From assembly GCA_905221615.1 (NCBI GenBank), contig CAJNDT010000946.1:715865-779864 (forward strand): DNA of 64,000 nucleotides, read 5' to 3'. Source of the DNA: Symbiodinium sp. CCMP2592 (taxonomy: Eukaryota > Sar > Dinophyceae > Suessiales > Symbiodiniaceae). Of this stretch, positions 12,926 through 43,041 are shown one piece after another; position 1 is the first letter of the stretch; the number at the start of each line of letters is the position of its first letter. A program made the translations under genes and the position numbers. The notes below the pieces were generated by a model, which worked only from the letters and a program-made list of their open reading frames with translations, ran no database searches and was not told the origin of the DNA.

Positions 12926-12954
12926 AACAAGTCCGCGTAACAAAATGGCGCTTC

Positions 12955-15485: not shown

Positions 15486-15490
15486 ATAAG

Positions 15491-20650: not shown

Positions 20651-21268
20651 GTCGAATAAGCCAAAATCGTCACAACTCTGCTCCGGTCATGACGGTTCCC
20701 ACATCAGTGTAGTTGATGTGCCCTTATATGCCAAGCCTTGCTTGCAGTAAAAGTGACTACTTAGCAAGTTTATCGCTTAGGCTTAGGTCGTATGTAGACT
20801 GGGAAGTTGCATGACACATACACAATACGGTACTTGCTCATCTTCTCGTAGCCTGCTTACTCAAGTCGCCACCTCCCTAACCGCAAACCCTTATCTAGAA
20901 CACTGCGCACTCTGAACCCTTTAAATCCTTTGCGGTGCACCTCTGAGGACTCTCCAGGCTGTGCCGCACCTTGGCTTGGCTGTATAGGGAGCTGCAGATT
21001 GAACAGGGGGTAGGTTTAGGGGTTAGGGTCTAGGGTTCAAGGTTTAGGGTTTAATTAAGGTTAAGGGTTCAGGGTTCCGGGTGTCAACATCATGCGAAGG
21101 GGTGCTTCGGGGGTGACCCGCAGAGCACGATTTCGGGGTTTAGTCGGGACTTGTTTACAGGAGCACCAAATCGGGATCGGGTGCCTTCAATAGTAGCTGC
21201 TCATGGCTATTGTCTTGCGTTTGTGAAACCCCGTTCACTTTGTGTAGCCAGCACCTGCATTTGCCCAG

Positions 21269-21630: not shown

Positions 21631-21969
21631 CGCTTTATGGCTTTCGCGACACGTCCGTATTCCGGGGTCTTTGCAGCCTGCAGTCAAGGTGTTTTGGCCC
21701 CTGAGCTCGTCAACCTGAATCAGAGAAGCTAGCTGTATACGAAGACCATAGATGCAAAACCCAAAATCGCTGCACCCTACACCATAGAACCCTAAACCCT
21801 AAAAACTAAACCCTAAACCAGGCCCTACACCATAGAACCCTAAACGTGCATTCCGAGGACAGCTTGCCGCTCATGGAAGATTCGGAGGCCGTTGGACGGC
21901 ATAGAACTTCTCAGCCCTGAGGCTTCTAGGGGATGTGTTTGTTGTTAGGGTTTAGGGTTTAGGGTTTAG

Positions 21970-23676: not shown

Positions 23677-23752
23677 ATGTCCCAGCGCTTCCAAGGAGCT
23701 CAAGCCCCTGTTGGTCAAGCTTCGGAAACTCGTGGGACTCAGTACCGTCAAG
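23677..23752 (+). CDS. AAA+ ATPase exon 1 (first recognisable)
   Basis: Reads [18 protein letters not shown] then STVK, matching the leader helix before the nucleotide-binding core. Acceptor is CATCAG (23676) or CCCAG (23685). The end is ambiguous: GA donor at 23753, GC donor at 23756, or GTACCG at 23742. Confidence 0.75.
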
Positions 23753-26700
23753 GAGGCCACCCTAAGAATTTCCTAGTGTTGAGGATTTCAAACCCTATAG
23801 ACCTAATGCAATAAGGCCTTATAGACTGTAGGAAGTCGACGGTTCAGGGTTGTAAGAAGAAGCCGTCAATGCATGAATAGATCTGGCTGCCTGTTTCGGA
23901 GAGGCCTTGCTGCATGTACTCGTATATGCTGCGATGGTGTCAGGGTCGAAAGCTACAGTGGAGCCAGAAGCACCCCCCGTTTAGGTTTGTGTGCTTACAA
24001 GGCTTACAACTCTGACAAAAAGCCCACAATACTTGCTTACTAGCCTGGGCCTGCAAGTACTGTGATTACTGTGAGGGTCGAAGTCCTTACTTGGTTGTTG
24101 GTTCGAGGGGTTGAGGGGCTGGGGGCTAAGGTCCAGAGTTCAGGTGTTTGTACTGTGTCGGCATTTTAAATTGAGGATTTAGACAGCTGCGTTTGGTTTC
24201 GACAGTTCAGGGTGGATCGAAATAGTTATGCTGTCCCTGTTTCAAGGTTGAGGTGAAGGGTGTAAAGATTGCTCATGGATTTCAGAGATGAGGTGTTGAG
24301 GTTCTTGGCTAGCTCCGCGCATAGAATCTGTACACGTCGCCAAAAGCCCTGAATCGAAAGTTCTAAGTCCTGGGCTGCAACCCCAAAGAAGCGATCCCTA
24401 AACTTAGGGTTACTTAGAAATAATTTTAAAATGTTGGTTATTATAATCCCTAAGAAACAGCTAAAATTACAATTTTTGCTAGGGTTCTAAGTTCAGTATA
24501 GTAAGCTCCAGACGGTTTCGTAGCCCTTGCGCCACAGAAGCTCTACTCTCTCGATGCCCGATGCCCGATCAGCCAGCGTCAAGCCTCGAGCCCGACTTTG
24601 AAAGATCCTAATGTAGGGGCCTAAATGATTACCTATACTATTCTGGGGGCTCCTTATTATAATTACAGTATAAAGGGCCCCAAGACCTTATTCTAATTAT
24701 TAAGACCCCTACAGATTCCTAGACTACGGTCATAGGTTTCAGGGCTTAGGTTTTAGGGTTTGATCCTAGACAGATCACAGAGATGAAAGCAACAAGCCCC
24801 TGGGGTCTATGTAGCCAAATAGTACATACCTTGGCCGTAAGTAAGACCTATAGGTAATTCAGGGCCAAAGTAACCAGGGTCTATGGAGATGATCAGCTCT
24901 ACCCCTTTAACCAATGGTTTCAGCATTTCAGGAGTTCGGATTTCAGGGATTGAGGCGAGGTCATTGTGCGCTTCAAGGGCAGGGGCTTGAGGGTTCGCTC
25001 TCGATGTTTGGCAGGATGGGTTTGGGACTAGCCTTGGCCCTAAATCAATTCTCAAACCCTACCTCAACCCCCAGTAGCCTTCCTTTTTGACCTCCCTCGT
25101 GTTTCTTTATATAATGGACTCAGTTAAAGGTCCCTAAAAACGCTAGAGGTCCCTAGCCTAAAAGGCCATGGGGAAGCTGTTCGGTCTCGTGAAGCTCAGC
25201 ACTTGGCGGACGAATCTCGGGATGTCTTCTTTGGAAGGCACGGGGCCTGTAGGCGCATAACCTACCCCTTTTTTAGGGTATGTACTTTTCTATATAACAG
25301 ATCCTTACCATAAAACGAATACATTATCTTCGACTTGGACATGTTGCAGACTTGTGGCGGGAGTTCAGGCTGATTTTGGAATACACATGCGATATGTGAT
25401 AAGGGCGGTTGAAGTGATGCGAAGCATATTCGGACGAGTGTTTGTGGGTCAGTCGTACCACACCTGTGTAAGAGCTACAGGCGAATTTGCTGTGCCTTCA
25501 AGAAGTGGTTTAAGGAACTTTGAAGGTATCGACCGGCTGTGGCTTCTACGGTGAGGTTTGTGAGTTTAGCATTAAAGGTTTCGTGACTCCCGTGCAAATT
25601 GGGGTTTACATTTTTGGACGAAGGTGGATGCAAAGCCAAAGTTCTGGTTCTTCAGTTGGGATCATGCGGGACCCTGATTCAGAACTCGTGTTCCAAAGCC
25701 CCAGACTAGGTGGATCCATATGGGTGGCTGGTTGTCAAAATTAGGTACAGGTAGTGTTCCTTCTGGGTCCTTGATATAACACGCCACCTATTATTTACGG
25801 TATATTCCCAAAAAGGGACCCCTATTTGGACAACTACCCATATGCCTACGGCCTACTAGAATCAGGGGCTTCATAATCAGGATCTTACTTGAAGCTCTCT
25901 AAACCCTGACCCAGTCCCAAATTTGAATAAGATGGGAGCCTCAATATTTAGAATAGGGTTTTGGGGTCCATTGTATTGTTATAATAAGGAACCACCCAAA
26001 TAGTATTGGTAAGTACTTGGGTCCCTATATTATGAGACAACAGGAAGGTCTTGTGGAGACCTGCACCTGAGAATAGTGTGGGACTTGACGGGTCCCAGCC
26101 CTAAACCCTAAACCGGCTCAACCCCATGGACCCTAAGCCCCAAAGTTTAGGACCAACCCAAGTCCATAGTGTTTCGGGTTTAGGGTGCCAGTCGCGATTG
26201 GATCTTTGACGCCAGGTCAGTCCTTTCACATGCGCAGCTTGGTGGAAAGATGGTTCAGGGTATAGGGCTTGGGGTTTAGGTGGTGAGATGCAGAGAGGTC
26301 GCAACGACATATATACTTATGTAGCATAGTCAAACATGGCTGTTGTTTCTACTTTTGCTTACTGCTACTGCTACGGCGCTAACCTACCACTCTACCACTA
26401 CTGCTTCATCGACGACGACTACTACTACTACTACTACCACTACCACTACCACTACCACTACCACTACTACTACGACTACTACGACTACTACTACTACTAC
26501 AACAACTACTACGACGACTACTACGACGACGACTACTACTACTACTACTACTTCTACTACTCTCCTACTGCTATTGCTACTGCCCGTGAAGTGCACCCTA
26601 TATCCCGAAGGGTCCATGTGGGGGTTCTTTTAAGGGTTCCATAAGGGTAAGTTCCACAGGGATTTGAGGCTTAGGGTACCATATAGTAGATGCTTTACAT

Positions 26701-27121
26701 TAATTAAGGCCAAACCATTTTCCACTCGGATACATGGACCTTTGAGGCTATATGCTAGGAACCAGAGTAAGCCCTTATTCCCTTTCTGGGGGCTCAGGTT
26801 CCTTTACAACACCCTTTAAGCCAAAAAGGGCACCCTCTTCTTCCGAGGTTACTCCCTAAACCCTAGGCCCTAAACTCTCTTAGGTCTAATATGTCTTGGC
26901 CTCAGCCGAAGGTCCCATGCAGAACATGTGCGAAGTATCGTTCCGTTTTGCAAGATTTGCAAGAGGACCATGTTCCCCTGCATCCAGGTACTTGTGTATG
27001 TATATGTTTTTTATGCAGGTATGTTTGATATTTCGAAGAGTGTATGTCCGCTTCGTCTATAACATTTTTGCTTACATATGCATGCAGTGCTCATGTATGC
27101 AGACTTGATTAACTATAATAC

Positions 27122-27197
<76 letters not shown>

Positions 27198-30100
27198 GCA
27201 CGCATGTGTATGTATATGTACATGTATGTGTATATATATGTATATGTATATGTATATGTGTATGTCTATGTATATGTATATACATATTCGGAGATTCAAC
27301 TGTACCTATTTGTTTATTTGTTCACAAAATTGCAACCCTAGTGCTTGCACTCTGAAACGGAGGCCCTCAGAACCACTGGTGTCCGCAGCCTGTGAGGTTT
27401 CTTGGGCAATCCTGGCACCGGGAAGACTGTGGTTGCCCGCATCGTGGGAGAGATGATGGTCAGCTGACTGAGATCAGGAATAAGAACTTTTTGTTTATGA
27501 TAGCAATGATAGCAATGATAGTATTGGTTGTAATAATGATAATGGGTGTGGGGCACATACACCGAGTCAAAAGTCTAGGCCAGGCAACCGTATTCGTTTC
27601 GAAAAGCAAGGAGGACATGCATTGTGACTGTTGTGTCCATTTCTAACTTGACCCTGTGCAGCTTGTGCTGTTAACCGGAAAAGGCATCTTTGCACCCGTG
27701 TATGCCTAGCTGTGTTTAGGCCTCGTCATGCCATTTGCGGCTGGTGTACACTGTAAGTCGTTCGCGCGCGTCTCTGTGTGTTTCTCTGTGTGTCTGTCTG
27801 TGTGTCTCTCTGGGTGCCTCTGTGTGTCTCTGTGTGTCTCTCTGTGTGTCTCTCTGTGTGTCTGCCTGTGTGTCTCTCTGGGTGTCTCTGTGTGTCTCTG
27901 TGTGTCTCTCTGCGTGGCTCTCTGTGTCTCTCTGTGTCTCTTTGTGTCTCTCTGTGTCGCTCTGTGTCTTTTTGTGTCTCTTTGTGTGTCTCTCTGTGTC
28001 TCTGCGTCTGTCCGTCTGTCCGACAGTCCGACCGTCTGTCTGCCGGTCGACTGGCCGTCTGGTCCCTCGGTCCGTCGGTCGTCCGTCGGTCTGTCGGTCT
28101 TGCCAGGCGAAGCGTATAAATTGTCTGCACATCTCAATCGTCAGGTGAAGATGGGTGTGGTGGCCATGCCAAAGGATCAGAAGAAAAAGCTGGAGGCAGA
28201 GGTGACCCCTCTGCAACCATGACTTCAGAGTCTAGGATTCCAAGTGACAGCGATTAAACAGTGATCTGAGAGTCATGCATCTATTATAGGGGCCTTAATA
28301 ATTCGATCAGGGTATTGGTGCCCATTACTACACCTAGAACCGGGTATTAGTAGTTCTTTCGGCCCCCATATTAAGGGAATGGTAAGGGCCTGTTTGGTGT
28401 CTCACCAGAGAAGCCCTAAACCTGACTTTGCAGAGGAAGTGCTTGGTGCTTCCGACACAAGTCGCTGGATGTCGCAAATCTCTGACCCTTTTGGGTTTAG
28501 GGTTTAGGGTTTATACCCTCTTTGAACCCAAAGCCCCAGACCCAGTGCGATGTTTCTCACAGCCAAAATCATTCTGAGCAACCGCTATGCAATATCATTC
28601 CTTACGGTTCCTCATTAGGTTTTTCCACCATGTAATTACTACTCAAAACCTTTTTCGAACCATGAAGGCACCAAAACCTTAAGCAACGGTTGATGATATT
28701 AATCCTGCATGATCTTAAGGGCCCTAAACTATGGGAATTATGGTATATTCCGTATTATCGGTAATGCAGGATTTATATCATCAGCCGAACCCTAACCCCT
28801 AACCACCAAGCCTCAAACCCCAAACTCTTCAGCCCGCATCTCTACTCCAAAGCCTAGGCTACACATTGAGCCTTAAACCCTGTACCCCAAGCCCTTTGGC
28901 AGTTTCCGATAGTTAGGGGGACCTTGTTTTGGGGTCCTTGTATTTAGGATTCTACTATTTAGGGTGCGATTTTACGGTCCCCTACTTTCGGAAACTCCCA
29001 TATGTTGCTCGGCGGGGCAGGCGAGGAACCGAAGCAAGGAAGCGGGCCACGAAGTTCCCACTGAGCTGGTCTTCCGTGAGGCATCGAGTATGGCTCAGGG
29101 TTTGGGGTCTGGGGGTTGGGGGTTTAGGGTGGGGCTTAGGGCTTAGGGTTTAGGGTTTTAGGTTTCACGCTCTAGGGTTTAGGTTTTAGGGGAGCAGTAT
29201 TACAGTAAAGGTGTCTTTGCGGTTTTGATATAACACTCACCCACCCAAGCATCCCATAACAGTAAGAAAATACACTTAAACCATATAGGTCGGCTCAACA
29301 GCTTCTATTCAACAATAACCTTTCTACTTTGGTTCGCATTGCTATTCGCGAACTAGACTACTGTTTTGGGGTTTGGACTATTACTTTGAACTTCCGAAAG
29401 TTGGTTTAGGGTTCGAACTACCGGAGCCTTAAACGGACCCTGAACGAACCCTAAACGGGAACCCTAAACAGATCCCTAGACGGAGGGAATCCGAAAAAGG
29501 AGCACTAAAAGGAACCCTAAACGGAAACTTTAACGGAGGGAATCCTAAACGGAACCTTAAAAGGAACCCTAAACGGAAAGAATCCCAAGCGGAGACCTCA
29601 AAGGAACCTTAAACGGAACCCTAAGCGGAGGGAATCCTAAACGGGACCCGAAATAGAACCCTAAACGGAACCCCATACGGAGGGAATCCTAAACAGAACC
29701 CTAAATGGAGGCAATCCTAAACGGAACCTTGGAGTCTCGGCCTTGGTCTACCTTTGGTTAGTAGGGAATGGAAGAATGGTAGTAATAGTAGTTATAATTG
29801 TACCCCATTCCTCCATTCCCTACTAACCAAAGGTAAGGTTTCGGCCTTGGTCGACGAAATCATCAGGGTTTGAATTCTACCTATAGTCTCCATTGTGGTT
29901 CCTCTTTGTGGTTTAACCAATTTTATAGTAAAGGTCTTACTAGGTAACGACAAAGAAGATCTGCCATGGAGACTATAGGCATCGCTGGTATAATATGAAA
30001 GAGAGGTTTAGGGTAGGGATGGGTAGGGCTTAGGGTGTAAAGAGATTGGGTTGAGGGGTTTGGGGTTTAGGGCTAGGGGTTTGAGGTTTCGGGGTGTTGA

Positions 30101-33100
30101 GGGTTGAGGGCTCAGTGGGTTTTCCAGATTTTAGGATTAGGGGTCCCAGGGTCGGGGTGCATGGGGGCAACTGGCAAAAAAAGGGGTCAGTTGTTGGGCT
30201 CGGGGTTCGCAAGTGGAGGACTCTTGGTCGGCAGGCACGCGATATTTTGTGTCTTCAGTGTATTCGGATCCTTGGAGATCTTTGGCCGATGTTCCCGGCG
30301 CTGCCTCTCGGAGATCTTTGTGGTCTCGTTGTGTTGTGTTGAGTTCGGCAAAGCAAGACGAGGAATGAAGACAAAGGCGAAGTCTTGAGAAGCCCTGATG
30401 CTTGATGCCGGTTCTGCAGAGAATACATACATGCAGGCAGGATCGCCTCAGGGGCATGCGTGCCTGCTGATGGTACAATCCTGCTTGCCTGTCAGCAACA
30501 AGGGCTCCTGATTCAGATCAACCCGTTTTGCCCAAAGAACAGCACCTACAGGGAACTCCAGAAAGTTGGAATATGGATTAATGGTAGGATCCCCTATTTA
30601 CCATAAAGGGATTATGATAATGATATTCCAACTTTCTGGCTTCTACTGTAAATCCCAAAAATGCCACACTCAAAACCCAAAGTCAAACTCCTAGCCCAAA
30701 ACCCTAAAGCCGAGGCCGTAAACCCTCCTAATTAAACCCTAGACCCCAAGTCCTAGAAGCAATACTTCCCCAAGTTTACCCTAAACCCCAAACTCTAAAC
30801 CCCAAGCCAAACAGTATTTCCCCAACTTTGTGTCGAGGCCAGTCGCGCCGACTTGGTCGCCCAATATCTGGGGCAGACTGCTCCCAAGGCCCATGACGTA
30901 GACGTGAGGGTTCGTTTGCAGGGTTATGTCAGGGGTTCCTTCAAAGGGCTCCATAAGTTGTTGCTTCGAAGGCTTCTATAAGGGGATCCCTTAATGGGTT
31001 CTGTAAGGTGTTCTTTGTCATCACGGGGTTCCTTTAATCGATTGCCTTGGAGACTTCATGGTTTGTGGCTTACAGGTTCCGCATAGGATTAAGGTTTTGG
31101 GATGTGGGGGCCCTGGAAGACAGTCCTGGGGGCGCATGTACCTGTATGATATATACATTTTACCTACCATCCACATATGGCAACCCCGGTATGACCAAAG
31201 TATACTAGATATGTACACGGTAAAGATCTGGTGAAAGGTTTGGCGTCGAGCTTCGGGCCCAGTGCTGGAACCCTGATCGAGAAACTACATGGGTCTTTGT
31301 GAAGGTTCTTAACATGAATCCGAAGATCTTGAGGTTATAGGGCCAGGTTCCTCCATAAGTGACTTAAGACCCCCTTAAGCCCCAATAACATTCCTTTTTT
31401 GGCTTCCTTAATATGATTTCCTTCTATACGTCCTTAAAAAGGCAGGGTATCCCGGGTTCAGGTAAAGCCTAAATCCTAAACCCTAAAGCCTAAATCCTAA
31501 CCCTAAATCCTAAACCCTAAATCCTAAACTCAAGGCCTAGGCCGCCCACCTTCGATGGTGGGCGGCGCTTAAGCCCCTCGACATCGACGATGGCGCAGGT
31601 CGATCCAGGACGCTCGCCCGCCGTCCCACAGCCAGTACTGTAGCACCCACGTTAGGCCCGGTATCGGTCCCCGGACCAGTACTGGTCCCTATTAAAGTCA
31701 TTACCCTAAACCTGCTACCCGAAATCCTGGCTTGGAAGCTCCAGCGAGCAGAGCCCCCCCTTTCCTGGCACCCTGGCCTCCCTGACCCGCCCTGGCCCCC
31801 CCTTTCGTCTGGCCCCGCCTGGCCCCCCCTGGCTCCCTCTGGCCCACCTCCTGCCGTACTCTCCCCTCCTCTGCCCTGCTTTTTTTGAGCTTGGCTGCAG
31901 AATTGTGTGGTTGTTGTTAACCAATATGGACCTAACAGAGTTTAGGTCCTAAACCCTAAAAGGTATAGGTTTGGGTGGTTTGCCGCCTCAGACGGCGTGG
32001 GGTGGGTGAGTTATGTGATGGCCTGCCACAGTCGGGCCATGTCTGCGATTCGCAGGCAACAAAACCGCTAATAAATCCTACAATCCCTGTTACACTACCG
32101 CTACGCAATCTTGCAGCAAACCCTACCCTAAACTCTAAACCCTAAACCCTAAACCCTAAACCCCAAACCCTAAACCCTAAATCCTAAACCCAAACCCTCA
32201 GCTTTGGCAGTTCCCAATCGCAAGCTCAGAGGCGCTGGAGAGCCTAAGCCGAGCGCGGGACTCCCGAAGAGCTAGAAATCTCGGTTTAGGGTTAGGGTTC
32301 AGGATTTAGGGTTTAGGATTTAGGGTTTAGGGTTTAGGGTTTAAGCCCTAGAAGCAAAGGGGACAAGGAGGGACCTCTACCCTACAATGGGCTATAGAAT
32401 AGGTATATAATGGCTATAGTTAGGGTATAATATACCTAGAGGTCCTTATCAAGGGTCCCTCCTCTGACCCTTGGATAGAAATCTTTGTCATACTGTGGAT
32501 GGACAATATCCTGCATGACCCAGTATAAGGAATTTACCATGATGCTAATCCTATCCCAACAATGAACTAGAAATCCTAAGTGTCCAACGGCTGACAGAAT
32601 AATATAATAGGGGCCTGAATAAGTACCAATACAATTTTGGGGGGTGCCTTATTATAGTTATAGTATAATGGACCCAAAGCCTATTCTAATTATTAAGGCC
32701 CCTACATTATACACATTGGCCCTTGACCCTGAAATAGCAATATAGGGACTACTTGAAGGCCACAGTATTGCACAGTATGAGCACATGGACCCTTATGCTC
32801 TGAACTCCTAACCCCTGAACCCTTGTGTCGGCTACCTTTATGGAACCCCTAAAGCCTTAAGGGTCCATGTCCCCAAACAGTATATTACACTTAGGCCCCA
32901 AAGTACCGATATAGGGACTACTTTAAGGCCAAAGTACATACTATTTGGGTACATGGACCCTTAGGGTAAGGCCTTGAGGTACATGGACCCTTACTCACAA
33001 GGCTTGCCCTTGAGAAGATGCCTTGCAACTCAAATCCAAAGCCGTGAGACCTCCACTCTGTACAAGGAAGGCCTGGATAGTATAAGGGCCTTAATTACCT

Positions 33101-34061
33101 AGATTTTTTTGGGGAGGGAGGGGGTCCTTCTTATAGCTATAGTATAAGGGCCCCCAAGCCCTATTCTACCTATTAAGGCCCCTATAGTACTTAGCAATAC
33201 TCTTCTCAGGGCTTGTGAAAGAGATACAATGCTCTACCAGAAGATTCTACATGTACTGATACGATTCCTTGGATTGTTCAAGAAAAGCATTGTGGATGAA
33301 AAGTAAAAGTTTGTGTTTCGGTGTAGGACTTAGCAACAACCAATCCTACTCCAACAACTCTGCGCATATGTCGCTTTGCGGTTTCTAGCTTTTGGGCGAC
33401 AATCCTGCCCCAATAACTTTACACCTACGCTGTTAAGGGCTTTAAGATACGATTTGGCAAAACCCCATCCTGCCCCAAAGGTACGCCCTAAACGCTTAAC
33501 CCTACACCTGCGCAGGTCGAGAAGGCCGTGGAAAATGCACTGGGTGGTGTTCTCTTCATCGACGAAGCATATGCTCTGGTGCGCAATGGCAAGGACACCC
33601 TCTCAGCTCCTGACTCTTGGGGCTCGTGGGTTTGTAGTGTCTGCTGCTGACCCAAGCGCTGGGGGTGCATGTACTTGCCGAAACAAAACAAGTTATGAAC
33701 ATTGGTCCGAATGTTGCTTGTCAGGCACCCTATCCAGCCGAGTCTGTAATATAATGTAGGGGCCTAAACAATTACATGCCAATACTATTGTGGGGGTTCC
33801 TTATTGTAATTATAGTATAATTGGTCCCAAAACCCTATTCTAATTATGAAGGCCCCTATGTTACCCATAGATACCTGGACCCCTGGGGAATGGTTCGCCC
33901 ATCCTCAGCTTTCTCTGACTGGATTGCATATTTGGTTCCAGTTCGAACAGCCCTAAACCCCTAAACCCTACACCCTTAGCCCCTTAACCCTATATGGACC
34001 CGATTGAAGGAACTTTGTCAAGGACCCCTGCCCCGCCCCCAAATATATGTATATATACAGT

Positions 34062-34092
<31 letters not shown>

Positions 34093-36976
34093 GTTCCTAC
34101 CCTAAGGCTCCTAAGAGGGTCTTGGGCTTTCTGGGGGAGGTTTTCGGCTTTTGGGGCTGGGGTCCGGGATCTCACTACAAGGGTCCAGGAGCCTTAAGGT
34201 AGCGTTTGGGATGCAATAGAGGGGCCTTATTTATTAGTGTAGGGTTTTGAGGCCATTGTAGTATAGTTATAATAAGGAGCCCCTAGGAATGCAGTTGAGG
34301 GGCAAAAACAGGCGCACACCCTATAGTAAACTCCATAAAGTTGGAAACCGGATTAAGGCCAAATAGTGCTGGCATTCCCTATACATTACTCTTAAAGGTT
34401 GAGGCTATGAGGTTTCCAAGTTTTGGGCGTTTACTGTAAACCCTAATTGATAACAGCCCAAAGCCTCGACACCAAACATCGCGAACTCCGGCAAGTTCGG
34501 CAGCCCTCCGCTCTCGAAATGATCAAGAAGCCTATGCTTTAGGGGCTTAAATGATTACCTATACTATTTTGGGGGGGTCCTTATTCTAACTATCGTGTAG
34601 TATACCCCCCCCCCCCCAACAATAGTCGAAGTACTAAGGCCCCCATATGATGCTTTAGGTGAGGGCGCTACAGACGAATGGTAACAACAGGGACTATGGT
34701 GAATAGATCCTTTCTCTATTCCCACTATACCGCTATTATGGCCCTGAACCCTAAACCCTGACCCCCAAGACATGAGGGGCCTAACACCGCCTATCCTCTG
34801 AATGTTGTCTGGCAGGACACCTTTGGCCAGGAGGCAGTGGACACGCTGATCAAGGATTGACATGGGCGGGGTTTAGAGACCCACGACCCAATGTATCTAT
34901 GCCTGTACAGTATACCTTATGCCTTACAGCTCGTGACTTACATAGTATGTGCTATACCTGTACCTTGTGTCTGGCATCTTGTATCTTACAGGTTATAACT
35001 GTAAATCATATCTACCTCCTGGCATCTTGCTGTATCCACCTATCTGTGTAATATATATATATATATATATATATATTATGTACGATCACGTCACATAGTT
35101 TATTGCACTTTGCCTACCCAGATCTTCCAAAATACCGAAACGAAGGTATGTAACCGAGATCATGCTATGGTTCCTACTGTAGTGTACGGTATATTCCTTA
35201 AGTAAGTGCTTTGGAAGATCCGTGCAACTACGGAGCTTTTCAGGCCGGGCGAGAGGGGAGAGGGCGCGGGTCGGGCCTCAAAGCCGAAACAAGGAGGGAG
35301 CGTCAGGGGATGAAGGCACCTTCGTCGATTGGGGTTTAGGGTTTAGGATCTAGGGTTTAGGGTTTCGGGTTTAGGCTTAGGATCTAGCCAGGTCTTCTTA
35401 AATCCCTGAATTAAGGTCTTCTTAAATCCCTGAATTAAGGTCTGTGGGCGGTTCCCTGAATTATGACCCGGCAAGGGTCTCTAGTCTAGAAAACTTAGTG
35501 TGATTTTAGGTATGTTCCTTCATCAAGGAATTTTGGAAGATCTGGCTAGGCCCCCGTCTAGGCTAGGGTTTCTGGTCTGGGTTTAGGGTTTGGGGTTTCA
35601 AGAATCAGGGTGTAGGGTGTTGGGATTTAAGGTTTATGCAGGTTCAGCGTTTAGGCTTCACCTTGAGTCCTGGTGCAGGAGATGGAAGACAAGCGGAAGA
35701 ACGTCATTGTCATCCTTGCCGGCTATGAGCCTGTACTTGCAATACCCTAAGGGTCCAGAGGATCCAATAACTAGGTACTTGGGTTTAGGATAGTAGTTAT
35801 GTAGCTCAACATTTAGGAGAGTCTATGATTTTTGGGTACTTGGACCCTTATGGATAGGGGGGTGGTCTTCCGTCTTGGCTTCTCAAGGGTGCCTTCTCAG
35901 CCAGGAAAACCAAACCACGAAACCCTGAACCCTAAACGTCCAAATCGCTCTAAGCCAGAGCTTGTGGGCTCTTGGGCCTGCACTCTAAACCCTCAACCCT
36001 GAAGCCCAAAATCACTTGATTGTGTTTAACGTTGTATTCTGGTGTTTCAGCACTTCGCTCTTGGCATATCGTGTTTCAGCCGCTGGGGCTCTTCTGATGA
36101 TACAGCGGCAGCGAGATCTACGACTCTTACTCAACTAAGCATAGCCCAAACCCTAAACCCTGGGTGAAGGGGCACCCTGTAAAGAACCCTCAGAGGAACC
36201 CTAGCAATAACCATGGCCCATACCCTAAACCCCTAAACCCTAAACCTTAAACCCTAAACCCGAAACCCTAAACCCGAAACCCTTATATAACTATATAACC
36301 CCTAAACCCTACACCTTAAACCTTAAACCCTAAACCCGAAACCCTAAACCCCTAAACCCTACACCTTAAACCTTAAACCCTAAGCCCTAAACCCGAAACC
36401 CTAAACCCTAAACCCCTAAACCCTACACCTTAAACCTTAAACCCTAAACCCGAAACCCTAAACCCCCCAAGGAGTCGGAGATGGACACATTCTTCGATTC
36501 GAATCCGGGCTTCAAGTCCCGCGTTCCCTTCAGCTTCCGCTTCGAGGTGGGGTCTTAGATTAATAAGGTAGAAGCCAGAAAGTTGGAATATGATTATCCT
36601 ATAAACCCTTCATGGTAAATTATAGGGGATCCTACCATTACTCCATATTCCAACTTTCTGGAGTTCCTTCTTATTATAGGGTCCTGAACAAGTACCAATA
36701 CTGTTGTGGGGGTGTTCCTTATGAAAATTATAGTATAATGGGCCCCAAAACCCTATTCTAATTATTAAGGCCCCTATAGTAGGGTTTAGGGTCCTTTTGC
36801 CTTGAAATCCGTTTTTTAGTGCTTGGTATAGGGCTCTGAACTGTGGGAGTTTCCGAAAATTAGGGGTACCTTATTTGGGGTCCTTATAATAAGGATCCTA
36901 CTATTTAGGGTACTATATTAGAGCCAACCTATTTTCGGAAAGCCCCATGTACAGGCCATTGAACAACTTTTGTCTG

Positions 36977-37014
<38 letters not shown>

Positions 37015-40000
37015 GGTGGATCCGTCTTATTGAGTTCCGATGTTGGGTCATTACGTGGCTAGTCAAAGCCAAGTATGGGGGTGTCTTTCGAAGGAACGGT
37101 CAAGTGCTGGGGCTTTGAGATTTCGGCCTTTGCTCTTTTACTTCTATAGTTCACAATCTATCTCAAGAAGGCGCCCCGGAACGACTTGCCGAATCAATCC
37201 GGACCCCCAAACCCTGAACCGGGGAAGAGGCTTTGGCAAGCACCCGACGTCGGAGCCTAGGAACCACACCCCGGCCGCTGCCCCTAAACCCCAAACCCCA
37301 ATCCCTATATAAACTCGAACTCCTCAAGCTTAAAACTTAAACGCTAAGCCTGTAAAGCCTCAACCCCGAAATCCTAAGCCCGAAATCCTGAACCCCCAAG
37401 CCCCAAACCCTTATCAACCCTTATGAATGATAAGACCCTATATAAACCTTTGAGACTAATCGCGGCAGGATTACAGCTGCAACGAGCTCGGCCAGATTGG
37501 CAACCTTGCCGCTTGCATCTGCAGGTTAAGGGTGTACTATAGGAGCCTAAATGATTGCCAATACTATTTTGGAGGTTCCTTATTATAAGTATAGTATAAT
37601 GGGCCTCAAAACCCTGTTCTAATTATTAAGGCCCCTGTATTCGGGTCTAGGGCTCGGTTTTCAGTGTGTTGAAGGGTTGCAAGGGTATTGGTTTCGGGTC
37701 AAAGGCAGGGTTTGGGGTTCAATTGATGGTGTTTCAGGTATATAACAAAACTAAAGGACGGGGATAAAAACAGCAATGTCCTTATGGCCCCTGATATATG
37801 CAAAGCATAGTATACCCACCAAATCCTATTCTGGGTTTTCTAAGGCCCCAACATCAGCGCTGTAAATGGGTATTGTTGAGCTCCCCGGTCGAACCCTTCA
37901 ACCGTAACCCCTAAACTTCTTAGTAGCTGAGTGGATACACTTGACACTTTTTGGGATAATATTACCCACTGTAAAGCGAAAAGTGTACACTTTTTGGGGG
38001 GCTTATGAACTCAGCAACAAAGAGTTTGAGCGCTAAGCCCCAAACCCTATACCCTGTAAAACCTAAACCCTAATTTAGGGCATCGCAGATTTAGGAGTGA
38101 GACCCTGCGTCAGAATCAGAGCCCCAGAGATGTGAAATTGACACCCTCTGACCTGCGAGAACCCCTACTCTTAAACTCCAAGGTAAAAGCCAGAAAGTTG
38201 GAATATGATTATCCTAACCCTTGTATGGTAAATTATAGGGTATCCTACCATGAAACCATATTCCAACTTTCTGGAGTTCCCTGTAATCTTAAACCCTAAG
38301 CCTTAATAGCTAACCCCTGAAACTCGAGACATGATTCGCCCGGCCCGGGATTCACCGGCAACTCCAGTGACCTGCCTGCGGCTTCAGTCTTATACAGAAG
38401 CCCATCCCAAAGGCTCCATGCACCCTTATAGTATATACTTAGGCCTTAAAGTACCTATATAGGGACCCCTTTAAGGCCAAAGTATCCACTATAAAGGTAC
38501 ATGGAGCCTTTGGGTATGTAAATACCAACAACATTATCCCGTAGGTTGAGGGTTTAGAGTTTAGGGTTTAGGGCCTTAGGCGTGCTTATTCTATGGTGAC
38601 TATACAGGAGCCCAAAACCCCAGTCTAATCATTACCCTAAACCCTGAACCCTAAACCCTATTCTAATCATTAAGGCCCATGCATTATCTGCATACATCCC
38701 GGAGCAGGTCCTGTCTTCACAGGGTCTTGCCGTGCCGCCGCAAGCTTCGCGGACTTGTTAATGGGGTAGGGTCTTTTAGGAGTGCCAAGCGCTGCCGACT
38801 GTCCAATCTAGAAACAAAAGCTGAAATGGTTGACCTGTTTTGGCGGAGTAATCTTGGAGGCGGCGCAGAATAAAGAGGAGTAGGGTTTAGGATCTAGGGT
38901 GTAGAGTTTAGGGTCTATGGGCTTATAGTGTCTAGAGAGTGCCCAGGTACTCAAAAAAAATCGGGCTCAAATACCGCGCTGCTCGATAATGTCTTTCGGC
39001 CTTTTAAGACCCGCAGGGCCAGACGTAGACAGTGGAAGCTCAGGGTCCAAAGCCTAGACACCCCAGCCAAAGGCTCCATGTACCCGTATAGTACATGCAG
39101 TGGCCCCAATGTACTTATTTAGGGGGGCCTCTTCAAGGCTTAAGTATATTATATAATGGAGTCTGATGAAAAAGACCTGGGCCTATAACTCCAAAATAGT
39201 GGGATTCATATAAGGAACCCCAATAAATGCCCAAGCTTTCTTAGTCAGGTTCCTACATTACTTAATTGGGACATGGAGCCTGAGGGCCACCAAAGGAAAG
39301 AAGCTTCTCAGTCGGAGAGTCCATGGCCCTCTCCAAGGAACTAAACCTACCAGTAGGGTTTAGGGTTTAGGGATTTAGGGGTTTAGGGTTTAAGGTTTTA
39401 GGGTTTCAGGGTTTAAAGGGTTTTAGGGTTTTAGGGTTTAGGGTTTTAGGGTTTACCTGAACCCTGGATATCCTATTTGAGGACTTATATAAGGCAATCA
39501 TAACAAGCAACCCTGGAAAGGTTGGTTCTTCAGGGCTCATGTAGGGTTTAGAGGAACTCATAACCCAGTAACCGACCATATAGAAAACTGGGCTCTTCCA
39601 GTCCCAAAGCCATAATCAAAGGGGAAAAGGAGGCACCCTTAATGGGGACCCCTACCCTATGATGGGCTATATATAATGGGTATATAAAAGCTCTACTAAG
39701 GGTATATACCTAGGGGTCCTTATTAAGGGTCCCTCCTGTTACCCTTGGACTTAAGGAAACCCTGAACCTTGTAGACACTGTAGGTACATTTACCCTAACC
39801 TACTTGGTGTAGCTATAGAAATGTTCACCCGAACTTGACGCCGCACCACATACCATCTACACATCTACAGCCACGCACTCCGGATATACCCCTTGAAGGA
39901 ACCCTGTTGAAGGAGCCCTCCTGCAAGCTCTAAGCCCCGGACCCAGCCGTTTTGACGGAACCTCCCCTAAGCCCACACACCCTCAACCACTAAGCCCTGA

Positions 40001-43000
40001 AACCCTAAACCCCTAAACCCCAGATCTGAAAGTCCGAACCCTTCATCCTTGAAGCTCTACCTAGACTCCCCAACTACCCTAAAATATACCCCAAATATCC
40101 ACAGTTTAAATGGCCATAACAGCTCTTTTTAAAGGGCCCTGGGGGGGGGTCCTGACACACCCTGAACGCTGAGGTCGGCACTCAGTTCGTGGACCTCATC
40201 TCCTTTGCCAGCGGCTGCTGCATTCCGGCAGGGATTTTAGAAGAATGACTCATTACCACGCTCATCCCCTATATAGTATGTATGATGTACCCAAAAGTCT
40301 TACTTTAGCCGCGAGGAAATGAGGGGCACTCTGGATTTAGAGCTTAGGGTTGTAGGGTTTTGATGCTCAGGTTACAGGTTACAGGCTCTGGGTTCAAGAC
40401 ACGTTCAGGTTTGGGGTTCACAATTTGGAGCTAGGATACAGGGATGAGGACCTGGCGTTTAGAGTCTAGACTCAGGCTTCAGGGAATCACAAGTTTGCCA
40501 GCGATTCCGTGTAATTCATCCACTAGGCTGTAGGCTGCGGTGTTGAGATAACTCCAGTAGATGAAAGCCACTGGGCTGCTAGGGCTGCATTGTGGTTTGA
40601 AATCATCGACGTGATGGCGTGGGCATGCAGGTACAGCTAAGGCACTCCTGCATACATCCCATAACATGCCTGAAGCTTGCCTGTGGCCACCGAAGCCCCC
40701 AGCCCTCAATACCAAGCCAAAGGCCCAACAAACCCTAACAAACAACACTCCACCCGAAGCCCCAAAACTTTTACTCCTTAGCTCCCCCACCAAGAAATCT
40801 TTGCAGCTCGATGTCCGGCATGGCACACAGGCAACAACGTCGCAGATGCCGACTGCCACCCATCCAGGGACAACGGCAACGGCCGCACTGTTCGAAACGT
40901 GGTCGAGGCAGGGCGTGTGGAGTTCAACATTGCAGCCTGAATAAGTAATGCTAAGTATCCCAAAGGACAGTATAGTTCGTATAGTCCCGTATGTACTTTT
41001 GGGACCCAAGTATCGACAAAGTACCTACTACAATACTGTTTTTTGTTGGACCCGTTGGGCTTATTATTATACTGAAGTAGAACATCGCCAAGTGCCCTAT
41101 TCTTCTGACTTATGCCGCACATTCCCGTTTCGGGCCTTTGGAGGCAAACCGTTGAGGGAGGCAGCAGCAAGATGTGAAAGCTTAAACCCTACAGCCCAAT
41201 ACTATAGCCTTAATATTAATACCCCTAAAAAAGGCCCTAAGGGTCCAAGTACCCAGTGATCCTTTACTCTCCTAAATTTTGAGCTACATAAATACTATCC
41301 TAAACCCAAGTACCTAAACTCTTGCCCTGAGCCCCAAACCCCTAAAACCCTACACAAGGAGCCTTTTGATCGAGGGCGTTTTGGTTTTAGGGTTTAGGGT
41401 TGCAAGGGTTTAGGGACACATTGTAGACCCAAATCCAACCCTAAACCCTACCTTAACCCGGAATAACCTACCTTTTTAAGGACCTATATAAGGAAATCAT
41501 AATAGTGAACCCTAAAAATAAGGTAGGTTATTCAGGGTTAAGGTAAGCCCCTGAGGATCCTCAAGCGTTGCAGCTTGAAAACCCCGACAGCTTCAAAGTC
41601 TAAACCCGAAAGCCCAAAACCTCAAATCCAAAGCCTGTAACCTAAATTCATAATCTTGCCTGCAAGATACTAGCATTGAGCTTTCGGCTTCGGGCTATGG
41701 GGTTGAAAGGTTGAGAGTTTAGGCTTTAGGATTTGTGTTTAGGGTTTCGGAAGGGGGGTCTGACAAAGAATCGAGGACGTAAGGGATCTCCTTGCAGACA
41801 CAGCACCAAGTGGATTCTAGTTGTCATAGGTAGAGTTTCGAACTACATGTACCCTAACTTTGCTTACCCAGGTATGTATGTCGACTTACAGGGATCCTCT
41901 CTGTTTCTGTCAGTTGTCGGAATTCTAGGGATTCGGAGTTTCGGGCAAATTGATTTTGCGCTGGGTGATGCAGGAGGTGTCGGGCCGTGGGGGACCGCCG
42001 TAGTGGGGCTGATGAGGTGCCGGCATCCGACTATATTGGACTCCGGTTTAGGGTTTAGGGTCAACCATTGGCCTCCGGGCCCAGCTGGCCGAAACAGTGC
42101 AGCCCCAACAGCCCCTGAACGGCATATAAGTACCTAACTATCATATACTCTCAAAGTAATAGCCTACATAGCTACTACCCTAAACTCGAGTACCTAATTA
42201 TTGGGTCTTTTGGTCCCTTATAGTACCCTTATAGTATCCCTTGTAGTAGCCCTTGAAAGGAACCCTAACTCTTGGGTCCTTTGGCCCCCCCCCTACGGTT
42301 AATGCCTCGCCTGTGCAACCCAAAACATGACCTCATCCCAGATCCGAATTCAGGGCGTGGGCTTCGGGTTTGGCGAAGAGCCTATATAATATAGGTGCTT
42401 TGGGGCCAAAGTATGTACTTTATCGGGCACGTGGACATTATGGTTAAATCAGAACAACCCCATTGAGGTGTGTGGCTTAGCATTTGGTGTTCGCAGGTTC
42501 TAGGTTTGGATCATGTTCGAGGGCTTGTAGTAGAAGCCAGAAGTTGGAACATGGCTTTGGGAGGATTACTGCTAGGATCCCTTATACTTCACCTTAAGGG
42601 CATGAGGATAATGATGTTCCAACTTTCTGGCTTCTACTATATGCAATGCAAACTGCCTACTGCCTTGAATTCCCCTGACAACTAAGCCCCTTCCCTGACC
42701 CACCAACAGGCGGAACCCCACCTAAGCTCAACAAAAACTGAAGCCCTTACTCCGAAACCCTGAACCCCTAAACCCTAAAACCCGAGACCTGGCAAAGATC
42801 TGCGTGCAGAGTTTCGGATCTGCGGCACGCCATGCTGTCATTCGCCATCCTGTTCAGGCTGGCGCAGAATCAGGTCGCCCGCAAAGCCGCCAGCCGACGA
42901 ATCCAGGCATGGTGGCGGCGCATTGTGCAGGCACGCCGGCAGGCCCAAATATCGGCGCTCGCCCTTCCGTGGCGTGGGCGCTCAGTATTTGTCGCGGCCG

Positions 43001-43041
43001 CGTCGGCTGCGGTTCGAGCACGCCCGTCGAGGAGGCGATGA
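23677..43041 (+). CDS. Split gene: CfxQ/CbbX/SpoVK-family AAA+ ATPase with C-terminal IQ-like motif
   Basis: Fifteen short exons (listed below) follow the family's motifs in order on one strand: a LVGLSTVK leader helix, [10 protein letters not shown] (Walker A), [31 protein letters not shown] (Walker B), [19 protein letters not shown] (sensor 1 region), [14 protein letters not shown] (Arg-finger/SRH region), DYSCNEL, and [12 protein letters not shown] (sensor 2). Family members are hexameric ATPase remodellers; bacterial and red-algal CbbX reactivates red-type Rubisco. Here the last exon adds a basic [11 protein letters not shown] tail resembling a calmodulin-binding IQ motif. That and the absence of a visible transit peptide suggest a non-plastid eukaryotic relative rather than CbbX itself. 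The N-terminus is unresolved and may include the candidate exons at 4.4-21.4 kb. Introns are 0.3-3.2 kb and most contain foldback elements. Family call is strong; exact exon edges, and whether the gene is intact and expressed, are inferred. Confidence 0.85.
24407..24504. repeat. Foldback element, ACTTAGAA family, copy 2
   Basis: Close copy of 3000-3106, differing at few positions, with the same inverted ACTTAGAA / TTCTAAGT ends. It lies in the first intron of the AAA+ gene. Confidence 0.75.
24610..24716. repeat. Foldback element, GGGGCCTTAATAATTA family
   Basis: TAATGTAGGGGCCTAAATGA and TAATTATTAAGACCCCTAC ends with GGCTCCTTATTATAATTACA between. Confidence 0.8.
25173..25248 (+). CDS. AAA+ ATPase exon 2 (probable)
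   Basis: Reads [17 protein letters not shown] and ends at a GTAGGC donor in phase 1, which joins exactly to exon 3. It fills the helix expected between VGLxxVK and Walker A. The acceptor edge is unresolved (AAAAG at 25164 or GGGGAAG at 25175). Confidence 0.6.
25925..26036. repeat. Foldback element, GGGGCCTTAATAATTA family, reversed
   Basis: Starts with GGGAGCCTCAATATTTAGAA and ends in TACTTGGGTCCCTATATTA. Confidence 0.65.
26400..26572. repeat. Trinucleotide repeat (ACT/ACC/ACG)n
   Basis: Uninterrupted three-base periodicity with the third base varying; gives Tyr-, Thr- or Val-rich pseudo-ORFs. Confidence 0.97.
26906..26944 (+). CDS. AAA+ ATPase exon 3
   Basis: 39 nt after a CTCAG acceptor; reads [12 protein letters not shown], with the last base completing an Arg codon across the GTTTTG donor. 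Confidence 0.8.
27119..27290. repeat. TATATG/TATATA microsatellite
   Basis: Runs of TATATA and GTATATGTATAT. It ends about 100 bases before the Walker A exon. Confidence 0.97.
27397..27458 (+). CDS. AAA+ ATPase exon 4, Walker A
   Basis: Reads [20 protein letters not shown], the P-loop with its Lys-Thr pair. Acceptor TGTGAG, donor GTCAGC. Confidence 0.92.
27770..28110. repeat. GTGTCTCTCT / TCTGTCCGTC simple-sequence array
   Basis: Degenerate repeat of TCTCTGTGTG passing into TCCGTCTGTC. ORFs of 110-166 codons on both strands reflect the periodicity and are not genes. Confidence 0.95.
28145..28201 (+). CDS. AAA+ ATPase exon 5
   Basis: Reads [19 protein letters not shown] between CGTCAG acceptor and GTGACC donor; corresponds to the variable stretch after the P-loop helix. 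Confidence 0.85.
28282..28378. repeat. Foldback element, related to the GGGGCCTTAATAATT family
   Basis: ATTATAGGGGCCTTAATAAT at the left and TCGGCCCCCATATTA at the right, with CGGTTCTAGGTG-type arms inside. Confidence 0.6.
28682..28788. repeat. Foldback element, TTGATGATATTAATCCTGCAT family
   Basis: TGATGATATTAATCCTGCAT pairs with ATGCAGGATTTATATCATCA. Related copies at 44770-44872 and 46665-46735. Confidence 0.8.
28900..29006. repeat. Foldback element, GTTTCCGAAAAT family
   Basis: GGCAGTTTCCGATAGTTAGG pairs with CCCTACTTTCGGAAACTCC. Related to 36842-36952 and 23255-23345. Confidence 0.75.
29400..29732. repeat. Degenerate tandem array AACGGAACCCTAAACGGA
   Basis: About fifteen variants of AAACGGAACCCT and AAACGGAGGGAATCCT. 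It resembles a CCCTAAA tract in which the unit gained CGGA. Confidence 0.85.
29749..29835. repeat. Near-perfect foldback, GGTTAGTAGGGAATGG family
   Basis: The 31-base arms TACCTTTGGTTAGTAGGGAA... and its complement match with a single mismatch around a loop of about 25 bases. A relative occurs at about 51130-51235. Confidence 0.92.
29877..29982. repeat. Foldback element, TATAGTCTCCATTGTGGTTCC family
   Basis: CCTATAGTCTCCATTGTGG pairs imperfectly with GCCATGGAGACTATAGG. Second copy of the family at 11325. Confidence 0.75.
30548..30651. repeat. Foldback element, CCAGAAAGTTGGAATAT family
   Basis: TACAGGGAACTCCAGAAAGT at the left and CTTTCTGGCTTCTACTGTA at the right. Other copies: 34320-34440 (diverged), 36567-36668, 38182-38284, 42525-42642, 49389-49492. 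Confidence 0.88.
30815..30888 (+). CDS. AAA+ ATPase exon 6, SRADL motif
   Basis: Contains [18 protein letters not shown], a family hallmark lining the central pore region. GC donor (GCCCAT). The start is set by the AAACAG acceptor. Confidence 0.9.
31460..31530. repeat. Telomere-like CCTAAAT(C) tract
   Basis: AAATCCTAAACCCTAAA-type units immediately after a CCTACC-family foldback (31375-31455). Confidence 0.75.
31715..31885. other. C-rich low-complexity stretch
   Basis: CCTGGCCCCCCCTT-type pyrimidine-rich repeats; no exon recognised. Confidence 0.5.
32100..32350. repeat. Facing telomere-like tracts (CCCTAAA then TTTAGGG)
   Basis: CCCTAAA units at 32105-32200 face TTTAGGG units at 32283-32342 across about 80 bases of more complex DNA, forming a large imperfect inverted repeat. 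Confidence 0.85.
32352..32478. repeat. Foldback element, GGGACCTCTACCCTA family
   Basis: AAGGAGGGACCTCTACC with ACCTAGAGGTCCTTATCA and GGGTCCCTCCTCTGACCCTT. A clear second copy is at 39615-39755. Confidence 0.8.
32605..32710. repeat. Foldback element, GGGGCCTTAATAATTA family
   Basis: ATAATAGGGGCCTGAATAAG and ATTATTAAGGCCCCTACATTA ends, with CCTTATTATAGTTATAGT inside. Confidence 0.82.
32856..32968. repeat. GGTCCATGTACC-family foldback
   Basis: CTTAAGGGTCCATGTCCCCA pairs with GGGTACATGGACCCTTAGGG; interior ACTACTTTAAGGCCAAAGTA kept. Confidence 0.8.
33070..33192. repeat. Foldback element, GGGGCCTTAATAATTA family
   Basis: ATAGTATAAGGGCCTTAATT and TATTAAGGCCCCTATAGTA ends. Confidence 0.75.
33516..33593 (+). 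CDS. AAA+ ATPase exon 7, Walker B
   Basis: Reads [20 protein letters not shown] and continues to NGK; Asp-Glu of Walker B at about 33561-33566. CGCAG acceptor, GA donor (GACACC). Confidence 0.95.
33752..33866. repeat. Foldback element, GGGGCCTTAATAATTA family
   Basis: TAATGTAGGGGCCTAAACAA and AATTATGAAGGCCCCTATGTTA ends (TA flanks). Intron 7 of the AAA+ gene. Confidence 0.82.
34320..34655. repeat. Two foldbacks in AAA+ intron 7
   Basis: 34320-34440 is a diverged CCAGAAAGTTGG-family copy; 34537-34650 is a GGGGCCTTAAT-family copy with a run of Cs at the centre. Confidence 0.65.
34816..34854 (+). CDS. AAA+ ATPase exon 8
   Basis: Reads [13 protein letters not shown] between GGCAG acceptor and GA donor (GATTGA). 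It begins with the same GACACC that follows exon 7. Confidence 0.92.
35679..35728 (+). CDS. AAA+ ATPase exon 9, sensor 1 strand
   Basis: Reads [16 protein letters not shown] after a GTGCAG acceptor. The donor may be GA (35727) or GC (35729), because GAG is present on both sides of the junction. Confidence 0.92.
35744..35856. repeat. Foldback element, GTCC(A)AGGATCCAATAACTAGG family
   Basis: CCTAAGGGTCCAGAGGATCC pairs with GGGTACTTGGACCCTTA. Shares TAGGATAGTAGTTATGTAG with 43455-43555 and 50704-50802, and its complement with 41236-41328. Confidence 0.8.
36215..36470. repeat. Longest telomere-like CCCTAAA array
   Basis: About 255 bases of CCCTAAACC, CCTTAAACC and CCCGAAACC units with a higher-order repeat of about 60-70 bases (CCTACACCTTAAACC recurs). 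It ends directly at the acceptor of AAA+ exon 10. Confidence 0.92.
36472..36546 (+). CDS. AAA+ ATPase exon 10, SRH/Arg-finger region
   Basis: Reads [20 protein letters not shown] then SFRFE. The upstream intron ends in a telomere-like CCCTAAA array that abuts the CCAAG acceptor; donor GTGGGG. Confidence 0.95.
36567..36785. repeat. Two adjacent foldbacks (AGAAAGTTGGAATAT, then GGGGCC families)
   Basis: 36567-36668 is a CCAGAAAGTTGG-family copy; 36675-36785 is a GGGGCCTTAAT-family copy. They sit end to end in AAA+ intron 10. Confidence 0.82.
36842..36952. repeat. Foldback element, GTTTCCGAAAAT family
   Basis: GGGAGTTTCCGAAAATTAGG pairs with CCTATTTTCGGAAAGCCCC. Confidence 0.8.
36978..37014. 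repeat. (TG)n microsatellite
   Basis: About 18 TG units with two GC interruptions. Confidence 0.95.
37469..37507 (+). CDS. AAA+ ATPase exon 11
   Basis: Reads [13 protein letters not shown] after GGCAG. It ends at a GC donor at 37508 or possibly at GTTAAG at 37525. Confidence 0.85.
37536..37643. repeat. Foldback element, GGGGCCTTAATAATTA family
   Basis: TATAGGAGCCTAAATGATTG and TAATTATTAAGGCCCCTGTA ends; GGTTCCTTATTATAAGTATA inside. Confidence 0.8.
38182..38284. repeat. Foldback element, CCAGAAAGTTGGAATAT family
   Basis: GTAAAAGCCAGAAAGTTGGA and CCAACTTTCTGGAGTTCCC ends. Nearly the same sequence occurs at 49389-49492, including AAATTATAGGGTATCCTACC. Confidence 0.88.
38406..38514. repeat. 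GGCTCCATGTACC-type foldback
   Basis: CCCAAAGGCTCCATGCACCC pairs with GGTACATGGAGCCTTTGGG. Confidence 0.85.
38705..38743 (+). CDS. AAA+ ATPase exon 12
   Basis: Reads [13 protein letters not shown] after CGGAG; GC donor (GCTTCG). It corresponds to the small helical lid domain. Confidence 0.8.
39066..39295. repeat. Nested foldbacks
   Basis: A GGCTCCATGTACCCGTATAG / GGGACATGGAGCCTGAG pair encloses an inner element (about 39160-39265) sharing AGGATTCATATAAGGAACCC-type sequence with 51755-51855. This suggests one element inserted into another. Confidence 0.65.
39355..39455. repeat. Telomere-like TTTAGGG tract
   Basis: TTTAGGGTTTTAGGG-type units, about 14 copies. Confidence 0.88.
39470..39755. 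repeat. Two foldbacks: CCTGGATATCC-type and GGGACCCCTACCCTATG family
   Basis: 39615-39755 matches 32352-32478 with the same TATGGGCTATATATAATGGG-like centre; 39470-39600 is less clear. Confidence 0.65.
40174..40219 (+). CDS. AAA+ ATPase exon 13
   Basis: Reads [15 protein letters not shown] after GCTGAG, with a GC donor. Matches the lid helix preceding the conserved Arg. Confidence 0.82.
40846..40912 (+). CDS. AAA+ ATPase exon 14, sensor 2
   Basis: Reads [20 protein letters not shown]; GNGRxVRN is the sensor 2 motif. CGCAG acceptor, GC donor (GCGTGT). Confidence 0.9.
41236..41555. repeat. Foldbacks and short telomere-like tracts in AAA+ intron 14
   Basis: 41236-41328 carries the complement of the AGGATAGTAGTTATGTAG family; 41455-41555 is a GAATAACCTACCTTTTTA family copy whose right arm is AAATAAGGTAGGTTATTC. 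Confidence 0.75.
42525..42642. repeat. Foldback element, CCAGAAAGTTGGAA family
   Basis: GTAGTAGAAGCCAGAAGTTGG pairs with CCAACTTTCTGGCTTCTACT. Confidence 0.85.
42810..43041 (+). CDS. AAA+ ATPase terminal exon 15, IQ-like tail and stop
   Basis: After GTGCAG it reads [20 protein letters not shown], then [20 protein letters not shown], an IQ-like Arg-rich motif, and ends at TGA 43039-43041. GC content is far above that of its surroundings. GC-rich DNA continues to about 43105, so a further exon in another frame is possible. Confidence 0.7.

Follow-up and report, generated by a model that had tools for sequence, protein, structure and literature searches.

Middle and 3' part of a probable dinoflagellate nuclear gene for a protein with two AAA+ domains, divided into very short exons by mostly non-GT introns

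Peridinin dinoflagellates use form II Rubisco. CbbX, a red-type Rubisco activase (PDB 3syk and 3zuh), was the best PDB match, by sequence and by fold, of a predicted protein whose coding sequence was assembled in pieces from a 64,000-nucleotide stretch of contig CAJNDT010000946.1 (Symbiodinium sp. CCMP2592, positions 715,865 to 779,864 of the forward strand; the whole stretch is called the window). Walker A, Walker B and SNPGF.SR motifs were common to the alignment; CbbX, with chains of 289-309 amino acids, has one AAA+ domain, whereas a relative of the window protein, P0121, has two together with helical regions. The top two NCBIfam models were stage V sporulation protein K (SpoVK, TIGR02881) and EccA (TIGR03922), and the window protein fell under both curated cut-offs.

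For Polarella and three Symbiodiniaceae, the columns of table 2 of PMC10666404 give donors of 43.6-58% GC, 23.6-36.6% GT and 17.4-19.8% GA, and AGG acceptors at 96-97%. GC/GA-AG introns and introners are described for dinoflagellates in passages of a review (PMC11453091), and long introns in Effrenium in passages of PMC11114475. Judged from its sequence, the window almost certainly holds the middle and 3' part of a Symbiodiniaceae-type dinoflagellate nuclear gene for a two-AAA+-domain protein, with tiny exons and non-GT introns.

The AAA+ domain and its relatives

Frames of the + strand, read directly, contained GNPGTGKT near 27,408, a ten-residue stretch near 33,549 and SRVPF near 36,517. Joining nine pieces by eye gave 176 residues, which matched Pfam AAA (PF00004) at 4e-18. 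They also matched the models for SpoVK, CbbX and EccA, each under its cut-off, and a PDB search aligned them to CbbX at about 4e-33. The protein joined from the exon model passed the gathering scores of the AAA core (PF00004, 58.0 bits vs 21.2) and of AAA lid 6 (PF17866, residues 376-418, 40.9 bits vs 24.3). Its best NCBIfam match was TIGR02881 (221.6 bits, below the cut-off of 422.95), followed by TIGR03922 (184.8 bits, below 466.65), and the CbbX equivalog TIGR02880 scored 177.6 bits (below 459.25). P0121 passed the SpoVK cut-off with 448.3 bits, three matched stretches being added over two domains. By these motifs and profiles, the domain is an intact one of CbxX/CfxQ-SpoVK type, with Walker A, Walker B, SRVPF and lid. 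Judged from P0121, it would be the second of two in a longer protein, and the window would cover all of this domain, the linker that precedes it and some of the C-terminal region.

Three protein searches were made. The first (best 120 of 3,734 matches) gave, as the best of the matches listed, 'spoVK, partial' of Symbiodinium pilosum (P0001); the names given among the top 15 were Symbiodinium, Effrenium and Durusdinium, several entries having none, and bacterial SpoVK-like proteins ranked after these. The second, with a query padded to admit longer proteins (best 120 of 7,966 matches, 7,998 candidates scored), gave P0121, P0127, P0140 (Effrenium voratum) and P0161 (Prorocentrum cordatum) among the matches listed. 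The third, with the joined 487 amino acids as query (best 120 of 7,334 matches), added a Cladocopium goreaui protein (65% identity, 285 positions) and a second, less similar spoVK from S. pilosum (44% identity, 405 positions). P0121 (953 amino acids), with two CbxX/CfxQ-SpoVK type AAA+ domains, was 91.0% identical over 487 positions, its second AAA+ domain, linker and C-terminal region matching the window protein; its contig (3,003 bp, of which the coding part needs 2,859) was read as a transcript because that part leaves no room for introns. P0127 ('s865_g11.t1', an EukProt gene model of 932 amino acids) was 96% identical over 322 positions, P0001 (partial) 91% over 222, P0140 71% over 458 with a different sequence in front, and P0161 (partial) 55% over 487. 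As far as each covers it, these five have the same second domain and surroundings. None of the five was identical, and the window gene is therefore from another species or is another copy. Two of them, both public gene models, look mis-joined: P0127 opens with the Walker A exon and, compared by eye, diverges from P0121 after about residue 422, and P0140 carries a glutathione S-transferase domain in front. No paper describing the two-motor protein was found in the titles and abstract openings of the papers listed by a literature search, and the comparison brings to attention an AAA+ protein of this kind common to Symbiodiniaceae and Prorocentrum.

The gene is predicted to encode two tandem CbxX/CfxQ-SpoVK type AAA+ motors, the first of which would lie upstream of the window, together with a linker and a C-terminal region that are both helical. 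Its coding sequence would be cut into exons mostly of 18-78 bp, separated by spliceosomal introns of 0.3-5.7 kb; after transcription, removal of introns of the form G(C/T/A)...AG before an exonic G would give a single reading frame. From its motifs and fold, the product would most likely be a ring-forming ATPase with a central pore through which it pulls a substrate protein, in the mode thought to hold for CbbX.

The exon model

Relatives were aligned to the window with a purpose-written spliced protein-to-DNA aligner that allowed introns G(T/C/A)..AG at equal cost. P0001 gave 12 exons, P0127 and P0130 lengthened the model downstream, and P0121 and P0122 extended it upstream to 3,420. The resulting model had 34 exons of 14-78 bp on the + strand (1,624 bp in total, mean about 48 bp), starting at 3,420 or earlier and reaching 51,012, so that coding sequence made up 3.4% of a span of 47,593 bp. 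From 7,390 onwards the modelled junctions were in phase, and the 31 exons in 7,390-51,012 gave 487 codons with no stop when joined. A second version of the aligner, with a mild preference for AG/G (the slash marks the splice site), reproduced all 34 exons, with 51,013 as the end of the last one. Its extra pieces at 3,115-3,126 and 5,761-5,785 were discarded as noise. Pieces past 51,016, pieces within the open reading frame (ORF) at 3-2,615 and small pieces placed with one relative (e.g. 41,527-41,536 with P0009) had been discarded as noise-like before the exons were counted.

Within the model lies the region 23,677-43,041, which a sequence-only reading had described as a complete AAA+ core in a gene-free repeat desert. 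That description was right in substance and understated in extent. The CfxQ/CbbX/SpoVK family, the motif order and the compatible phases were borne out by the exon model and the profile matches, and the fifteen segments, about 0.9 kb on one strand, compare in number and total length with 15 exons (819 bp) between 23,696 and 40,907, with both edges agreeing for 15 of 15 with P0140, 12 of 15 with P0122, all 12 covered by P0127 and 11 of 12 with P0001. The statement that no ORF exceeded background also held, the longest stop-free run (simple repeats removed) being 181 codons, a length attained in 8 of 100 shuffles. Of the two outcomes named in advance as refuting the description, a lack of any AAA profile match did not occur; for the other, a lack of joining transcripts, relatives on contigs of transcript size served as a substitute. 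The core is intact as a domain but, as P0121 indicates, would be only part of the protein, and the supposed desert is the inside of one long gene. Its limits were replaced by those of the model (3,420-51,012): the start, 23,677, is an ATG out of frame with exon 14, and at the end the alignments of P0121, P0122, P0127, P0130 and P0140 all pass from 40,907 to 43,240.

The exons are listed below; identities and scores refer to the alignment to P0121 unless another relative is named.

3420-3471, +: exon 1 of the window, EAGYRNFAARVVPTLYK; linker after first AAA+ domain; 17/17 identical, score 88; AG/G acceptor, GC donor
4454-4518, +: exon 2, DPSVRRVLDHVEKYAKLKEDTS; 13/22 identical, score 62; also placed with P0122; edges uncertain (AG/A acceptor; end at 4506 with P0122)
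7056-7099, +: exon 3, tentative, SVINKKYVEENYGPD; 6/15 identical, score 30, in the chance range; P0121 only; frame link to exon 2 not established
7390-7441, +: exon 4, AAACAEHKDPQKNWKPS; score 64; start agrees with P0140
9770-9805, +: exon 5, CEWTKGKLQQLV; 9/12 identical; edges agree with P0140
15491-15536, +: exon 6, GEDFILVHASRATDA; 15/15 identical; edges agree with P0122, P0140
16621-16648, +: exon 7, LLAPCRNAKM; 8/10 identical; edges agree with P0122, P0140
17351-17392, +: exon 8, DLNKFSDLAESALQ; 14/14 identical; end 3 bp later with P0122 and P0140
19200-19213, +: exon 9, tentative 14-bp microexon, AISE; 4/4 identical, in phase with neighbours; too short for a single test, no placement with P0122 or P0140
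20201-20257, +: exon 10, SGWEELVDAVAYGDCARSF; 12/19 identical, score 66; edges agree with P0122, P0140; AG/T acceptor
20948-20965, +: exon 11, 18 bp, QTLQAV; 5/6 identical; edges agree with P0122, P0140
21269-21293, +: exon 12, PNPPPAPKY; 9/9 identical
21858-21887, +: exon 13, DSLPLMEDSE; 10/10 identical
23696-23755, +: exon 14, N-terminal helices of second AAA+ domain; 18/20 identical
25165-25237, +: exon 15; 21/24 identical
26216-26233, +: exon 16, 18 bp, GQSFHM; 6/6 identical; also placed with P0002, P0005, P0007, P0008, P0010 (5 of 5 relatives)
27397-27458, +: exon 17, Walker A; 21/21 identical; GT donor
28145-28201, +: exon 18; 14/19 identical; GT donor
29021-29080, +: exon 19; 19/20 identical
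30838-30888, +: exon 20, presumably the pore-loop region; 17/17 identical; GC donor
33516-33593, +: exon 21, Walker B; 23/26 identical; GA donor
34816-34854, +: exon 22; 13/13 identical; GA donor
35679-35726, +: exon 23, which we take to be the sensor 1 region; 16/16 identical; GA donor
36472-36546, +: exon 24, presumed arginine-finger region; 25/25 identical; GT donor
37469-37507, +: exon 25; 13/13 identical
38708-38743, +: exon 26; 12/12 identical; missed with P0122
40174-40219, +: exon 27; 14/15 identical
40831-40907, +: exon 28, start of the lid match; 26/26 identical
43240-43286, +: exon 29, ALQRAMAKRVVRDGG; 12/15 identical to P0121, 15/15 to P0127
44204-44240, +: exon 30, RSAEELGTLTAAD; 11/13 identical; edges agree with P0127, P0140
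44927-44968, +: exon 31, VVAVAEEQAKTRLE; 14/14 identical
47587-47643, +: exon 32, GPCGQDGLLYKLAHAAAQE; C-terminal helical region; 17/19 identical
48529-48590, +: exon 33, AGLRSWFDEYKLSDPRTQLH; 19/20 identical
50962-51012, +: exon 34, RMVREAGRLSKTMSSFQ; 16/19 identical over 50962-51016; exact 3' edge uncertain (51,012-51,016)

Controls and alternative explanations

With residues 287-953 of P0121 as query, the spliced score over the whole window was 2,138 on the + strand, compared with 422 for the reverse strand and a range of 402-467 for 10 dinucleotide-shuffled windows; each of these 11 control alignments built 50-62 'exons', the best single piece scoring 33-65. Taken singly, 19 of the 34 exons scored above 65. 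Guanine plus cytosine amounted to 62, 42 and 71% at codon positions 1, 2 and 3, vs 46.8% in the introns, a coding signature which the alignment procedure does not itself impose.

Several points weigh against the gene model. The other 15 exons scored no higher than the best chance piece (65), and the case for the gene rests for this reason on total, order and phases. The aligner admitted only G(T/C/A) donors and AG acceptors. No continuous frame was obtained between 4,518 and 7,390, where the match of exon 3 is weak, about 23 P0121 residues had no secure placement, and the discarded piece at 5,761-5,785 (3/8 identical) had lain; the 14-bp exon 9 was placed with a single relative. The model is thus weak at exons 3 and 9, at the boundaries of exon 2 and across 4,518-7,390. 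P0121 residues 1-286 (first AAA+ domain) and those after about 837 (the last 116 or so) were not found within the window, and a search for the C-terminal rest in 51,016-64,000 (queries P0121, P0122, P0127 and P0130) gave noise-like pieces only.

The absence of these two parts from the window is also what a pseudogene would show, that is, a decayed or partial copy with recognisable exons from which no protein is made, for example one that had lost its first domain or its end, and the weak reverse-transcriptase ORF upstream and the 2,160-amino-acid ORF downstream count on the same side. Such a copy is nevertheless very unlikely, since 487 codons over 31 exons contain no stop, identity to a gene model reaches 96%, and the junctions are in phase from 7,390 on; a processed pseudogene would be without introns, and the missing parts can simply lie beyond the window. 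Another alternative is that a permissive splice model assembled the exons from chance matches in repeat-rich DNA, as it did with the 50-62 'exons' of each control and the control-like pieces beyond 51,016. Its probability is negligible: the total exceeded that of any of the 11 controls more than fourfold, relatives 65-96% identical gave the same edges, and the first runs had no built-in preference for the AG/G seen at 32 of 34 sites. The ten shuffles and the reverse strand reject this explanation and, for the block 7,390-51,012, refute it; exons 3 and 9, each weak by itself, may still be chance matches.

The window contains a conserved gene of a known kind, and the preferred reading remains the two-domain AAA+ gene. 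DNA that is empty to ORF finders and GT-AG callers can hide a well conserved gene, most of which is recovered by relatives and permissive splice rules.

Introns, repeats and neighbouring open reading frames

The 33 modelled introns, including those beside tentative exons, measured 290-5,685 bp (median 987, mean 1,393 bp). Their donors were 25 GC, 5 GT and 3 GA, in keeping with the earlier remark that a GT-AG caller would miss the gene, and acceptors were AG/G at 32 of 34 exons. The aligner imposed the G at donor position +1 but neither the proportion of GC donors nor the exonic G. Over 30 introns, little was conserved besides (A)G/GC at the donor and AG/G at the acceptor, no clear pyrimidine tract was present (0.545 vs 0.511 background), and base pairing of intron ends as a means to join splice sites was not significant (permutation p 0.20 and 0.26). 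Rfam gave no matches at gathering scores.

GC/GT/GA donors and AGG acceptors are shared with the dinoflagellate spliceosomal genes tabulated in PMC10666404, and the introns are of the ordinary dinoflagellate sort because this usage fits that table and the passages of PMC11453091 and PMC11114475. Against the same columns for Polarella and three Symbiodiniaceae, the mean intron (1,393 bp) compares with 486-1,408 bp, the mean exon (about 48 bp) is about half of 99-120 bp, and the partial gene, at least 47.6 kb, exceeds the average gene length of 8.8-16.2 kb threefold to fivefold. The gene is an extreme form of a known structure, and being so fragmented it is a good case in which to study how the dinoflagellate spliceosome recognises exons a few dozen bases long among kilobase introns with little conserved signal.

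The window is eukaryotic in look, with many CCCTAAA-type arrays and simple repeats and few long ORFs in the region 23,677-43,041. About 20% of it consisted of repeats of at least 50 bp recurring within the window, in similarity sets of 21 (mostly CCCTAAA-like), 20, 16, 7, 6 and 5 intervals. Many of the intervals were close to 110 bp long, and 17 were inverted repeats of themselves (fold-back). Examples of the short intronic elements, which form several families, many of them fold-back near 110 bp, are as follows.

24606-24714, short intronic element
32596-32717, short intronic element
33747-33866, short intronic element
36564-36667, short intronic element
38165-38285, short intronic element

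None of the 34 exons overlapped a repeat. Random placement of exons outside repeats would put 3.9 exon edges within 20 bp of a repeat and 7.5 within 40 bp; the observed counts were 11 (p 0.001) and 15 (p 0.0085). This clustering is no more than a lead, because the test was picked after the map had been seen and some of the 11 were CCCTAAA-like arrays. That the fold-back repeats are not passive, being either remnants of introners that created introns or an aid to the spliceosome at very weak sites, is a rather doubtful suggestion. A tandem array at 11972-12323 (37-bp unit, 9.5 copies, 95% matches) lies inside the largest modelled intron (9,806-15,490).

The following stretches stand beside the modelled exons.

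59731-63999, +: ORF of at least 1,423 amino acids, open at the window end; no Pfam match even at E up to 1
42772-43041, +: stop-free stretch closed by a TGA with its last base at 43,041, outside the gene model
52372-58854, +: ORF of 2,160 amino acids with, by eye, a zinc-knuckle-like CxxC..H..C stretch; no Pfam family above cut-off
3-2615, +, the gene strand: ORF of 870 amino acids that matches reverse transcriptase weakly (RVT_1, 8e-4, below cut-off)

The stretch at 42772-43041 carries what we take to be an IQ-like basic motif and may belong to something else. The ORF at 52372-58854 looks like a retroelement polyprotein, and that at 3-2615 is probably a long interspersed nuclear element (LINE)-like element, upstream of the gene or inside an earlier intron.

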